Source: Brevibacterium permense (lineage in GTDB: Bacteria > Actinomycetota > Actinomycetes > Actinomycetales > Brevibacteriaceae). From it: 64,000 nucleotides of DNA. This document shows, one piece after another, positions 5,530 through 55,505 of the stretch (position 1 is its first letter; each line of letters begins with the position of its first letter). Below the pieces are notes generated by a model. It did not search any database and had not been told where the DNA came from. It was given only the letters and a program-made list of their open reading frames with translations. Made by a program: the position numbers and the translations under genes. The stretch covers positions 186,001-250,000 of the forward strand of contig NZ_JABSSX010000005.1 in assembly GCF_013280495.1 (NCBI RefSeq), read 5' to 3'.

Positions 5530-7125
5530 ATGGAGATCGGCCGAACACTAACATGGGCAGCGGAAAGATTCCCCGATCGGATTGCCTTCGCGGGTTCTCG
5601 TCGGATGACTTATCCCGAGTGGGACGAGCGTACCAATCGAATTGCCAATTCGATGCTCGCCTTGGGGGTGAAGCCAGGGGACCGTGTTGCGACCTTTCTG
5701 AGCAACTCCGAGGTGATGGCTTCGACACACCTGGCATTGCAAAAGCTGGGCGCAATGTCCACGCCCTTCAACATCCGGCTCTCGGCACCAGAGTTGGCCT
5801 ACTGTCTCGAAAATGCCGAACCAACTGTCATCGTCTGCGACGATCTGGCCTCCGGCATCACGCAGGACGCCCTAAAGAAGTCTACTCCTAGTGCCACGAT
5901 GCTCCACGCCGGGACCAGCCCGATCGAGGGTGCTGCAGATTTCGAAGCCACCGTGGCAGAGGCCGACACTGCACCTCCCGGTATCAACGTGAGTGAATCA
6001 GACGCCAGTGTCATGCTTTACACGTCAGGGACCACAGGCAAACCGAAAGGCGTCCCACGAACTCAGCGCAACGAGTTCGCAGCCTCAGTTGCTCACATCA
6101 TGCAGGCTCAGTACGCGTCCGGTGAGTCCACGCTGGGAGCTATGCCGATGTACCATACCATGGGTCTGCGCTCCCTCCTGTCGATGGTCATCGTCGGAGG
6201 AAAGTTCGTCGAGATGCCAGTGTACGACCCGGAACGTGCCATCGAACTGATCGAGGCAGAGCGAATCTCGGCACTATATCTCGTACCAACTGCCTTTTGG
6301 GCTCTCGCTCAGACCGGAAAGTTGAAGCACGTAGCCTCCACTGTACGCAAACTAGCTTTCGCCGGCGCCGCCATGACCTCGACTCTGTGCCAAAAGCTCG
6401 AGAAAGAAATCGTGCCCGAGGTATTCGTCAACCACTACGGGTCGAGCGAAATATATACCTTCGCCGTCGAGGACAAAGCCTCCAGAAAGCCAGGCAGCGC
6501 CGGACGAGCCGGAATGCTGTCCCAGCTGCGGGTAGTTGACCCAGAGCCTGCAGCTTCGCATACTCCTCTTCCGACGGACGTCGTTGGCGAGATCGTTGTT
6601 TCATTAGACTCCGACGAAGCATTTTCCGGCTATTGGCGTCGGCCTGACGCAAATGCAAAAGCGATACGCGGTGAACGTTGGTACCACACAGGCGACCTCG
6701 GTCACTTCGACGAAGACGGAGATCTCTGGGTGGACGGTCGTGTCGACGACATGATTATCACCGGGGGAGAGAACGTCCATCCCATTGAAGTCGAGGACAT
6801 CCTAAGTCGCCACCCCGACATCGCTGAGGTGTCGGTCGTCGGGCTCAAGGACGAGAAATGGGGACAGGCGGTGACCGCATTCGTCGTTCCTGAAGAGGAG
6901 AACGAGGATCCGCAGGTCTTTGCTGAACGTATCCTCGAATGGACTCGCACCGAGGCCCCCCTCTCCCAGTACAAACGTCCCAAACGTGTTCTCGTGATTG
7001 CCTCGATCCCGAAGAGCCCGGTGGGCAAGATTCTTCGCCGGGAGTTGGTCGCTGGCGCTTATATCCTCAAGGGCGGTACCGGCAGTGATGCCAGTCCTGG
7101 CCATCCACCCGTTGAGACCGTCTAG
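5530..7125 (+). CDS. AMP-dependent acyl-CoA ligase (HmfD-like candidate furoate-CoA ligase)
   Basis: A 531-residue ANL-superfamily enzyme that would activate a carboxylic acid with ATP and CoA. The P-loop-like motif LYTSGTTGKPKGVP is at about residues 162-175, the HYGSSEIY segment at about 302, the YHTGDLGHFDEDG hinge at about 386, and the catalytic lysine region SPVGKILRREL near 497. The ATG at 5530 is three bases after the preceding TGA. Position between the Mo hydroxylase and a carboxylate transporter indicates that the hydroxylase acts on the CoA ester made here. The substrate is not readable from sequence; 2-furoate is the best context-based guess. Confidence 0.8.
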   Translation: MEIGRTLTWAAERFPDRIAFAGSRRMTYPEWDERTNRIANSMLALGVKPGDRVATFLSNSEVMASTHLALQKLGAMSTPFNIRLSAPELAYCLENAEPTVIVCDDLASGITQDALKKSTPSATMLHAGTSPIEGAADFEATVAEADTAPPGINVSESDASVMLYTSGTTGKPKGVPRTQRNEFAASVAHIMQAQYASGESTLGAMPMYHTMGLRSLLSMVIVGGKFVEMPVYDPERAIELIEAERISALYLVPTAFWALAQTGKLKHVASTVRKLAFAGAAMTSTLCQKLEKEIVPEVFVNHYGSSEIYTFAVEDKASRKPGSAGRAGMLSQLRVVDPEPAASHTPLPTDVVGEIVVSLDSDEAFSGYWRRPDANAKAIRGERWYHTGDLGHFDEDGDLWVDGRVDDMIITGGENVHPIEVEDILSRHPDIAEVSVVGLKDEKWGQAVTAFVVPEEENEDPQVFAERILEWTRTEAPLSQYKRPKRVLVIASIPKSPVGKILRRELVAGAYILKGGTGSDASPGHPPVETV

Positions 7126-53188: not shown

Positions 53189-53276
53189 CCGAGGCGGTCG
53201 GAACGCGGATTCCCGTCTTCCCCTCACCGAGGCGGCCGGAACGCGGATTCCCGTCTTCCCCTCACCGAGGCGGCCC
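53189..53276. repeat. 38-base tandem repeat carrying CCGAGGCGG
   Basis: About 2.3 copies with period 38: CCGAGGCGG occurs at 53189, 53227 and 53265, with GGAACGCGGATTCCCGTCTT between. It lies between the LssY_C gene start and the end of the MerR-HEAT gene. Confidence 0.85.
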
Positions 53277-53288
53277 GACCGGAATCGG

Positions 53289-54359
53289 TCAGGTTCGTCC
53301 CTTGCTCGATGTCTGCTCCCGTCGGCGGCGACCGAGTGCGGCGAGAGCGGTGGCTGCGAGCTCCGGGCTGTCGTCGTCGCTGAGCTCGGCAATGAGGTCA
53401 CCGCTGCGGTCGCCGGACATCTCGAGGAGGACCTGGAGCACTCGGAACCGTATCTGCGGATCGTTCGAGTCCGCTTGTCGGTGCAGTTCGGTGAGTACCC
53501 GTTCGCCGATGTCGGCAGTCGGTCCGGTCGCGTCGACGATGAAGCCGAGTGTCTCGGCGGCCTCGATGTCCTTCGGTCCATTCATTGCCATGTCGAGCAG
53601 CACGGGTACAGCTTTCTCATCACCTGAGCGGCCGAGGGTGAGTGCGGCGATGCTGCGGATATCAGGGTCGACATCGTCGAGTCCCTTGTCCAGCGCCTGC
53701 CGGATCATCGAAATCGAGCGTGAGTCGAGTTTCTCATCAGGTGTGGTCCTGCGGATCTCGTCGAGGGCCAGCAGTGCATTGCGACGCACTTGGGCAGATG
53801 CGTCGTCCATTCCGACCACCACATGGGGCACGGCCTCGGCACTGGCCTGGGCGAGCGCCCACCGCATGGCCCCGGCCGCGTTGAGCACGGTCTCCTGCAG
53901 GACTGCCTGCGACAGGGCCTCGATCGGCATTCCTCCGTCGACTCCGCTGCCGAGTGCGGCCTTGTGCCGTTGGATGGCATCGCCGGATTCGAGAGAGCGC
54001 ATGAGATCGATGGTGTACAGGAGAGACTCGCCGTCGGCTCGACCGAGCCGAGCGACGGACTGGAGGTGGTCGAGCAGACGCTGCTCGGCCGCGATCCGCT
54101 CACGTGCCTGGTCGATGAGGTCCCCGAGCACTGTGCCGGGGTCGAAGTCCGGCTCGGACAACACCCGACCGACTTCGGTCAGAGACATCCCGAGTTTGCG
54201 CAGACCCTCGATGTGGAAGATGCGCCCGATATCGGCATCGGAGTACTCCCGGTAGCCGGCAGGCGTCCGCTGGCTGGGCGAGACGAGGCCCAATGATTCG
54301 TAGTGGCGCAGCATGCGTGCGCTCACGCCGGAGCGCCGGGCCACTTCGCCGATGAGCAT
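53289..54359 (-). CDS. MerR family regulator with C-terminal HEAT repeats
   Basis: A 356-residue chimera. Residues 1-70 are a MerR winged helix (LIGEVARRSGVSARMLRHYE, GLVSPSQRTPAGYREYSDAD), followed by a dimerisation coiled coil to about 125 (GDLIDQARERIAAEQRLLDH). Residues about 145-350 are alpha-helical HEAT-like repeats (VVVGMDDASAQVRRNALLAL, DPDIRSIAALTLGRSGDEKA, DPQIRFRVLQVLLEMSGDRS). A HEAT array in place of a ligand-binding domain suggests regulation by a protein partner. ATG 54359 follows AAGAGGTGAC. The upstream same-strand gene encodes another HEAT protein, an obvious candidate partner. Confidence 0.82.
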   Translation of the reverse strand: MLIGEVARRSGVSARMLRHYESLGLVSPSQRTPAGYREYSDADIGRIFHIEGLRKLGMSLTEVGRVLSEPDFDPGTVLGDLIDQARERIAAEQRLLDHLQSVARLGRADGESLLYTIDLMRSLESGDAIQRHKAALGSGVDGGMPIEALSQAVLQETVLNAAGAMRWALAQASAEAVPHVVVGMDDASAQVRRNALLALDEIRRTTPDEKLDSRSISMIRQALDKGLDDVDPDIRSIAALTLGRSGDEKAVPVLLDMAMNGPKDIEAAETLGFIVDATGPTADIGERVLTELHRQADSNDPQIRFRVLQVLLEMSGDRSGDLIAELSDDDSPELAATALAALGRRRREQTSSKGRT

Positions 54360-54594
54360 TGTCACCTCTTCTCTGCTGTCAGCCACTCTATGCCGCAATC
54401 GCGGCGCTCCGGGTGCATTGTTCCGAAGTTCACCGATGCCTGGGACCTTTCGGACATCGCTCAACGGTCGCAGGCGGACTTCGCACAGGTGCTGGAACAG
54501 CGCCCTGAAGGAAGGGATCCGAGACCTCGGCCGTGTGTCGGCGGGCTTGCCCCACCCGTCGGCACACGCACGATCGGACCTTCCCTGTGCCGAT

Positions 54595-55230
54595 CTAGAC
54601 CGTGGTCTCGGACCCCAGTGCGACCACCCGCTTGGCTGCGTCCAAGACGTGGGCGAAGCCGGCATCCGGGTCATCGAACATGTCCCGGGTCGCCATGGCG
54701 TGAGCCCGCACTGTGTCGTCCTCTGCGTGAAGCCTCTCATCGACCACTGACACGAGATCCTCGCCGAGGGCCACAATCGCTCGGCTGAGGCTCTTCTGCA
54801 TCTCGAGATCCCCTCGCCCCAACTGCGCCACCAGGGCGGATGCCAGCTCATCACGATCTTCACCGGGCACAAGGGCAACGGCGGCTCTCCACGCGCTGCG
54901 GGCCACCTCGGTGTCGGCATGGGCGATGAGGGCGTTGCCGATCCGGGCCGGGTCCATGGCCGGCCAGGCGCGGACGTCACCGATCTTCGACAGGGTGTGC
55001 AGGGATTGGCTGATCGCCTGCGGCAGCGGCGAGTCGAGTTCGGCGACGAGGCGGGCAACGGTGTCGTCGGCGGGCAGTCGAGTGAGCGCCCAGGTGAGCA
55101 TGTCGCGGACGAAGAAGTCCGGTTCGATGCGGCACCGGGCGATGAGCACGTCGAGGTCACGGGGCTCGGCCCGGGTGCCGATAGCCATCGCCGCTTGCAG
55201 GCGCTGGTGGCTGTTGAGTGGATGTGTCAT
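54595..55230 (-). CDS. HEAT repeat protein
   Basis: A 211-residue all-helical protein made of HEAT-like repeats (EPDFFVRDMLTWALTRLPAD, LDSPLPQAISQSLHTLSKIG, HADTEVARSAWRAAVALVPG, EDDTVRAHAMATRDMFDDPD). It has no enzyme motif or membrane segment. ATG 55230 has an excellent AAGGAGG site; a longer frame from 55269 is less likely. It is transcribed toward the MerR-HEAT gene 235 bases downstream. It may bind or modulate that regulator; this is inference from shared repeats and order. Confidence 0.75.
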   Translation of the reverse strand: MTHPLNSHQRLQAAMAIGTRAEPRDLDVLIARCRIEPDFFVRDMLTWALTRLPADDTVARLVAELDSPLPQAISQSLHTLSKIGDVRAWPAMDPARIGNALIAHADTEVARSAWRAAVALVPGEDRDELASALVAQLGRGDLEMQKSLSRAIVALGEDLVSVVDERLHAEDDTVRAHAMATRDMFDDPDAGFAHVLDAAKRVVALGSETTV

Positions 55231-55328
55231 GGTCTCCACCTCCTTGTCACTCAGTGAAGACCCTGACATCGTGTCAAGGTCAAGCAGATCAGACTGAACT
55301 CATTCCCACCCCTGGAGCGGAGCCTCGA

Positions 55329-55505
55329 ATGGACAAGATCGATTTCAAGAGATCGCTGCCGAGTTTCTGCGCGAAGCAGGGGCGATTCGACCTCATCGAG
55401 GTGCCGGAATCGCAGTACCTCATGATCGATGGCCCCGGGGACTCGAACACCTCGCCGGATTTCGCATCGGCGCTGACGGGCCTCTATCCGCTCGCCTATG
55501 GGTGC
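55329..55505 (+). pseudogene. N-terminal remnant of a GyrI-like small-molecule-binding protein
   Basis: The first 58 or so codons (MDKIDFKRSLPSFCAKQGRF, then FDLIEVPESQYLMIDGPGD and TSPDFASALTGLYPLAYG) match the start of GyrI-like proteins, which are normally about 200 residues. After about 55505 the frame becomes Cys/Pro/Glu-rich and antisense to the next gene, so homology stops. The ATG has a GGAG-containing leader. It is probably a truncated relic; GyrI domains bind ligands and often accompany MerR-type regulators, such as the one nearby. Confidence 0.6.

Follow-up and report, generated by a model that had tools for sequence, protein, structure and literature searches.

Promoters of the MerR type have a 19- to 20-bp spacer that holds a dyad, and the regulators CueR, BmrR and MtaN share a helix-turn-helix (HTH), a dimer helix and a dyad in a 19-nt spacer (PMC9909328). 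TipA (TipAL/TipAS) is presented in PMC7762955 as a minimal, autoregulated multidrug-resistance system of the MerR class, in which antibiotics are sensed and sequestered and TipAL activates multiple genes. HTH and HEAT signatures together have been reported for some homologues of Ccr1 of Streptomyces, which is nucleoid-associated-protein-like according to PMC11272600 and is set beside our regulator by description only. A literature search made mostly outside subscription journals turned up no account of a MerR-HEAT regulator accompanied by a second HEAT protein, nor of TipAS combined with HEAT. Here, we describe such a pair from Brevibacterium permense; the two genes recur as a module in actinobacteria, also on some of their large plasmids, and no target of the module other than itself was detected.

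The window is a 64,000-nt stretch of B. permense DNA (NCBI RefSeq assembly GCF_013280495.1, contig NZ_JABSSX010000005.1, positions 186,001 to 250,000), and all coordinates count from its first letter. The MerR-HEAT regulator (356 amino acids [aa]; 53289..54359, minus strand; open reading frame, Pfam, AlphaFold2) comprises a winged HTH (about residues 1 to 72), a dimer helix (74 to 104) and a HEAT sensor domain (about 106 to 354). Its N-terminal MerR winged HTH was recognized by the Pfam models MerR_1 (E 1.6e-16, residues 1 to 68, above the curated cutoff) and MerR (E 7.1e-16), and its C-terminal part by HEAT_2 (E 9.6e-13; 48.7 bits versus a cutoff of 27.7). TipAS (PF07739) was absent among the 11 Pfam families listed up to E 0.1, which separates the regulator from TipA, and all 20 NCBIfam models listed scored below their own cutoffs. 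The AlphaFold2 model (24-sequence alignment; pLDDT 89.4, pTM 0.68) has a long helix at 74 to 104, followed by stacked helices from 110 to 354 that form a helical solenoid; in this monomer model, helix 74 to 104 would be the long post-HTH helix expected for antiparallel MerR dimerization. Structural matches of the head were MtaN, the TipAL N-domain and CadR (Foldseek/VIA-align), with MtaN 1jbg ranked best (Z 14.2; rmsd, 2.6; 105 residues aligned). The regulator thus resembles CueR, BmrR and MtaN in HTH, dimer helix and operator geometry and differs from them in having a HEAT solenoid as sensor; the claim of the initial annotation that a MerR DNA-binding part is fused to a HEAT domain and no known ligand domain was borne out by Pfam and AlphaFold2. 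By this protein, the nearest relatives with a name belong to Brevibacterium (95 to 96% identity), and its PADLOC matches were mad1 (E 3.6e-8, on the MerR part) and HEAT-ARM_XIII (E 7.7e-6).

A second HEAT gene lies upstream on the same strand, where the initial annotation had placed it (55230 to 54595, minus strand), and encodes a HEAT-only protein of 211 aa, the predicted effector (54595..55230; open reading frame, Pfam, AlphaFold2, alignment); a ribosome binding site, AAGGAGGTGG, was read from the sequence at 55236..55245 (minus strand). HEAT_2 matched it with E 3.9e-6 and 27.5 bits, just under the cutoff of 27.7. Its AlphaFold2 model (22 sequences; pLDDT 91.7, pTM 0.85) is all helices, and both models are solenoids, the fold expected of each protein at the outset. 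Five of 69 loci (L022, L079, L088, L089 and L097) read ATC where most have ATG after the ribosome binding site, which may, by eye, be a rare start codon. A defense role was considered and set aside: PADLOC matched no model to the HEAT-only protein up to E 0.01, and no relative was found on viral contigs with the query used.

The pairing of the two genes, which the initial annotation had proposed to survey, proved to be conserved. Out of 36 loci, 24 from nine actinobacterial genera (L009 to L032) hold MerR-HEAT relatives that extend past the head, and the remaining 12 match the MerR head only. The HEAT-only gene is upstream of the regulator in 23 of the 24 (in two pieces in L014), and in L018 the contig ends there. 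The spacing of the two genes is −14 to +19 nt outside Brevibacterium, where they overlap or adjoin, and 128 to 265 nt in Brevibacterium. Among 57 Brevibacterium genomes, both genes occur in the same 43, on the same contig and strand with the regulator downstream in all 43. In profile searches of an even sample of 396 actinobacterial genomes, 14 had the HEAT-only family (E ≤5.1e-79). The sensor domain (E ≤7.0e-74) was confined to 13 of these, and the genes were adjacent in 13/13. Weaker matches in this sample were three HEAT-EF-Ts proteins and four generic HEAT proteins. An orphan HEAT-only gene without regulator occurs in genome G307 (locus L091).

The HEAT-only gene was also present on 20 actinobacterial plasmids (16 from Streptomyces, 2 from Embleya, 1 from Nocardia and 1 from Tsukamurella). 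Three of these regions were read: the regulator follows the HEAT-only gene in L096 and L098, and in L097, where the gene table is empty after the HEAT-only gene, the DNA matches the regulator profile. In genome G445, neither regulator nor operator was found and only the last 55 codons of the HEAT-only gene are left. With the exception of G307, the three elements (regulator, operator and HEAT-only gene) are either retained or degraded as a unit in the loci examined. Two decayed copies of the cassette retain different ends, L099 (G235, contig C52) the operator and the HEAT-only start and L189 (G445, contig C5) the HEAT-only end and an RNA element described below. Gene neighborhoods gave no hint of function and differed between genera (39 loci plus the window; most with flanks of about 4 to 5 kb, some truncated where the contig stops). 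The same neighbors recurred outside Brevibacterium only in L026, L027, L032 and L087 (three of them Gordonia), and when ten proteins chosen from such loci and related ones were run against Pfam, the neighbors fell into varied families, e.g., glycosyl hydrolases, a methionyl-tRNA synthetase-type protein and phosphoketolase.

Ahead of the HEAT-only gene lies a putative MerR-type promoter/operator (55253..55283, minus strand), with a −35 element TTGACC (55283 to 55278), a 19-nt spacer and a −10 element TTCACT (55258 to 55253). The spacer holds the dyad CCTTGACA-CGA-TGTCAGGG, which reaches into the −35 element and whose score was reached by 4 of 1,000 shuffles. The ungapped 31-mer TTGACC-N19-TTCACT was fitted with at least 22 matches upstream of the HEAT-only start in 67/69 loci, a partly redundant set in which some Brevibacterium genomes occur twice, and the same 67 have a 19-nt spacer with the dyad, within the 19 to 20 bp of MerR-family promoters. 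The exceptions were L015, whose upstream part is off the contig, and the orphan L091 (best fit, 14/31). Random 330-nt pieces of the same loci mostly scored 13 to 16 of 31, with a tail above 20 that includes true sites. The consensus dyad is CCTTGACAC-N-GTGACAAGG, and the first six bases are invariant over the 67 promoter loci save one base in one locus. Divergent Brevibacterium loci (L190 to L193) keep the site with 21 to 25 of 31 matches, and in L190 both half-sites have changed to CCTCACACGGTGTGAGG. The initial annotation had left the MerR operator to be identified; a candidate is now located, and its position and co-occurrence with the regulator point to it as the regulator's target.

Distant relatives of the HEAT-only protein are tied to TipAS and to EF-Ts. 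Two Deinococcus plasmid proteins (L094, 4245 to 5786; L095, 4245 to 5774) combine MerR, TipAS and HEAT in one chain (TipAS E 2.8e-5 and 3.3e-9, respectively, both above cutoff), with TTGACT-N19-TACxGT 17 to 18 nt ahead of the start. L158 has a HEAT gene of this family and, transcribed divergently from it, a MerR-TipAS gene (E 2.7e-13); TTGACC-N19-TAGCGT lies about 8 nt before the HEAT gene start at 5887. The evidence for the TipA link consists of these three records, which include two from a single genus and have about 30 to 38% identity. In three genomes from other actinobacterial classes (L059, L060 and L061; G162, G258 and G097), proteins of the HEAT-only family carry a fused EF-Ts domain (E 9.4e-11, 9.3e-15 and 7.3e-10). 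L158 (MT835720.1) is a gut contig filed as "Bacteriophage sp." that encodes a DHDPS family protein and a response regulator (Pfam) and, by eye, an NAD-dependent-ligase-like open reading frame; these genes look bacterial, and the record is probably not a phage.

A conserved polar motif runs through these proteins. In a 16-row alignment of the HEAT-only family, R10, R32, E36, F39, R42, W47, R51, H78, K82 and H177 are invariant, and the motif E-x-[DE]-F-x-x-R-[DE]-x-[LI]-[ST]-W-A-x-x-R...H-x-[LV]-[SG]-K is present in 21/22 small HEAT proteins, the orphan, 2/2 Deinococcus proteins, 3/3 EF-Ts fusions and the single L158 protein. It was found in 0/20 sensor domains and in 0/90 decoy open reading frames (taken at 17 loci that encode other HEAT proteins; many are chance open reading frames), so that it tells the predicted effector apart from generic HEAT proteins. 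Scored on the HEAT-only profile by their best single domain, members and orphan gave 265 to 346 bits, the Deinococcus proteins 105 to 107, L158 98 and the EF-Ts fusions 81 to 98, compared with at most 46 for generic HEAT proteins and at most 31 for sensors. By whole-protein score, some long generic HEAT proteins reached 122 bits, above the Deinococcus and EF-Ts proteins, because they have many repeats. Profile A5, which some of the rows concerned helped to build, set 17 genomes (E ≤5.3e-72) apart from generic HEAT proteins (5.8e-21 and weaker).

The two genes would form one autoregulated cassette, and that they are a dedicated, autoregulated MerR pair we consider highly probable. MerR-HEAT would bind the dyad in the overlong 19-nt spacer ahead of the HEAT-only gene and keep the promoter low; a signal received by its own HEAT domain would, as in the standard MerR mechanism, distort the DNA and turn the promoter on, yielding HEAT-only protein and more regulator. 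Binding, activation, signal and effector action are steps proposed from sequence, and the HEAT-only protein is most likely the regulator's output. Since relatives of the HEAT-only protein are joined to MerR-TipAS regulators and TipA senses antibiotics, we infer that it is the effector of a TipA-like response, most likely by binding, or shielding against, an antibiotic (a small molecule or a peptide) or its target. The likeness to TipA extends to a MerR head with a C-terminal sensor, a soluble protein without DNA-binding head made beside the regulator, and the wiring of some HEAT-only relatives to true MerR-TipAS regulators. The operator, detected only at the regulator's own operon, would allow TipA-like autoregulation as well. 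The likeness ends at the soluble product, which has its own gene upstream and belongs to a different HEAT subfamily rather than being an in-frame short form. The explanation as a whole, autoregulated cassette plus TipA-like effector, we hold with moderate confidence; it is weakest in the drug part. The pair has the appearance of an unstudied module for drug response, for which a predicted operator is now given, and because its relatives are joined to TipAS sensors, the inducer might be found with a promoter reporter and a plain set of antibiotics.

A bolder and rather unlikely reading makes the HEAT-only family an unrecognized class of drug-induced target protection on the translation apparatus (EF-Tu/ribosome). 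The EF-Ts fusion would name the target, a Brevibacterium-specific RNA would set effector over regulator, and the family would stand under three MerR controls, namely the HEAT sensor in actinobacteria, TipAS in trans in L158 and TipAS in cis in Deinococcus. Should the EF-Ts link prove right, the family would represent a new kind of protection for translation.

The best-surviving rival is titration or feedback, in which the HEAT-only protein would dampen or reset MerR-HEAT by attaching to its HEAT domain, the sensed partner being a protein or peptide. The initial annotation had suggested titration by the small HEAT protein; we regard it as possible at a low probability and do not favor it. It fits the conserved gene pairing, and pairwise identities correlate more strongly between sensor and HEAT-only protein (0.92) than between DNA-binding domain and HEAT-only protein (0.83), although shared descent can also produce the former value. 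Fold neighbors of the solenoid were HEAT, alphaRep and armadillo proteins (Foldseek/VIA-align), and they include protein binders (alphaReps, PP2A A subunit). The likenesses to alphaRep 3ltm_A (Z 13.8; rmsd, 4.5; 170 aligned) and to the CpcE/CpcF lyase complex chain 5n3u_B (Z 13.1; rmsd, 3.2; 155 aligned) are of fold class and imply no common function; spliceosomal SF3B1-type HEAT chains ranked higher (Z up to 15.0). The NCBIfam CpcE model scored 18.9 bits versus a cutoff of 330, and the absence of the DNA glycosylase AlkD among the structural matches listed excludes nothing. Against titration, G307 keeps an orphan HEAT-only gene without regulator or operator, relatives have ties to an EF-Ts domain and to MerR regulators that use a different sensor, TipAS, the polar motif is absent from the sensor domain, and the HEAT-only gene is the first behind the only operator detected in carrier genomes. 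It is also more conserved than the sensor, with mean pairwise identities between loci of 75.5% for the DNA-binding domain, 62.0% for the HEAT-only protein and 46.4% for the sensor domain (55 distinct pairs from 62 loci with near full-length proteins, 68 tried).

Sensor and HEAT-only protein align with 97.2% probability (hhalign; E 4.3e-11). On the sensor profile, generic HEAT decoys scored up to 65.9 bits by best single domain, above the small HEAT proteins (up to 39.7) and the orphan (44.6), so that the sensor domain is no nearer to the HEAT-only family than to HEAT proteins in general. A specific duplicate pair, and with it a freed sensor copy of the TipAL/TipAS kind, is therefore no more than possible.

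MerR regulators commonly control other genes and feed back on their own operon, and TipAL, with its multiple target genes, is a precedent for MerR-HEAT acting mainly on a pathway elsewhere. The target range makes this improbable. Eighteen genomes (13 carriers and 5 without the regulator) were scanned with TTGACCTTGACACNRTGNCAAGG at up to 2 mismatches. Twelve of the carriers had a single site, G235 had two (the second at the head of the decayed cassette copy), and the 5 genomes without regulator had none; a reversed control pattern gave 0 sites in all 18. In the 57 Brevibacterium genomes, one site each was found in 34 at 3 mismatches, all 34 being carriers; at these limits of 2 to 3 mismatches, degenerate extra targets could be missed. 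Nine Brevibacterium carriers had no site at 3 mismatches, and the six inspected (L116, L123 and L190 to L193) matched the general consensus at 21 to 28 of 31 positions. With sites in the 13 carriers only at the cassette or its decayed copy, MerR-HEAT probably serves its own operon.

Divergent from the cassette is a GyrI-like 5′ remnant of 58 to 60 codons (55329..55502, end approximate, plus strand; tblastn, Pfam on a relative). It is the first quarter of a gene that is near full length in relatives, in agreement with the truncated GyrI-like gene of the initial annotation. The intact relative in L013 matches GyrI-like PF06445 (E 1.6e-10, Pfam), and only the first 60 residues of its protein align in the window (83% identity; E 2.8e-29, tblastn; other hits, E at least 7); Pfam on the 58-aa relic alone gave no hit. 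No GyrI-like gene was found in the open reading frames of the non-Brevibacterium loci L018 to L032. A three-part system, with this small-molecule binder as main output or sensor partner in Brevibacterium, is very improbable: the gene is divergently adjacent in 21/43 carriers, sharing the intergenic region, yet is not adjacent in 22/43 (in G428 a contig end may hide it), occurs without an intact cassette in G405, G415 and G445 and as a fragment in G403, is truncated in the window and G422 and split in two in G409, and shows by eye no MerR promoter geometry towards it. The GyrI-like gene is outside the conserved core and decays independently.

The wider intergenic spacing in Brevibacterium holds a structured RNA of about 90 nt that starts at the HEAT-only stop codon (54507..54595, minus strand; covariation, covariance model), a separate, putatively regulatory feature of the Brevibacterium cassette. 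Helix P1 pairs 54595 to 54590 with 54577 to 54572 around a loop containing GGGAAGG (54585 to 54579), and P2 pairs 54568 to 54555 with 54545 to 54532; the inner nine pairs of P2 (54562 to 54554/54546 to 54538) were counted and its outer part was assigned by eye. Of 32 distinct sequences, 20 were used; the two helices have 21 pairs, of which 9 had changes on both sides, in 43 cells (shuffled mean, 13.0; 0/500 shuffles reached 43; slid controls, 2 to 5 cells); the count of covarying pairs was reached by 6/500 shuffles. Single-sequence folding of the whole intergenic region was no better than for shuffles (z −0.48; 67/200 folded as well), and support for the RNA thus comes from covariation and not from energy. 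A conserved CCTTCC (54515 to 54510) could pair with GGGAAGG; this pairing had no both-side changes and four unpaired cells, and a pseudoknot is therefore only possible. Covariance-model scans, both run with stricter filters, found the RNA once per genome in 37/43 carriers, once as a remnant in G445 and in 0/361 genomes of other genera in a sample of the order. Against Rfam 15, the element had no match up to E 5, and the window had none at gathering score.

As a guess, the RNA may be a 3′ end that gives more effector than regulator and so sets their ratio. A classical terminator was rejected, as none was called and the fold energy is at shuffle level; readthrough or frameshifting from the HEAT-only stop into the regulator was rejected as well, the intergenic lengths not being constant modulo 3. 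Many Brevibacterium loci have, by eye, a TATAGT-like sequence ahead of the regulator start, and the regulator may therefore have its own promoter as well. At the other end of the cassette, just 3′ of the regulator gene, two direct copies of GGAACGCGGATTCCCGTCTTCCCCTCACCGAGGCGG lie at 53190 to 53275, and tails from similar repeats seem by eye to lengthen the regulator in L016 and L017.
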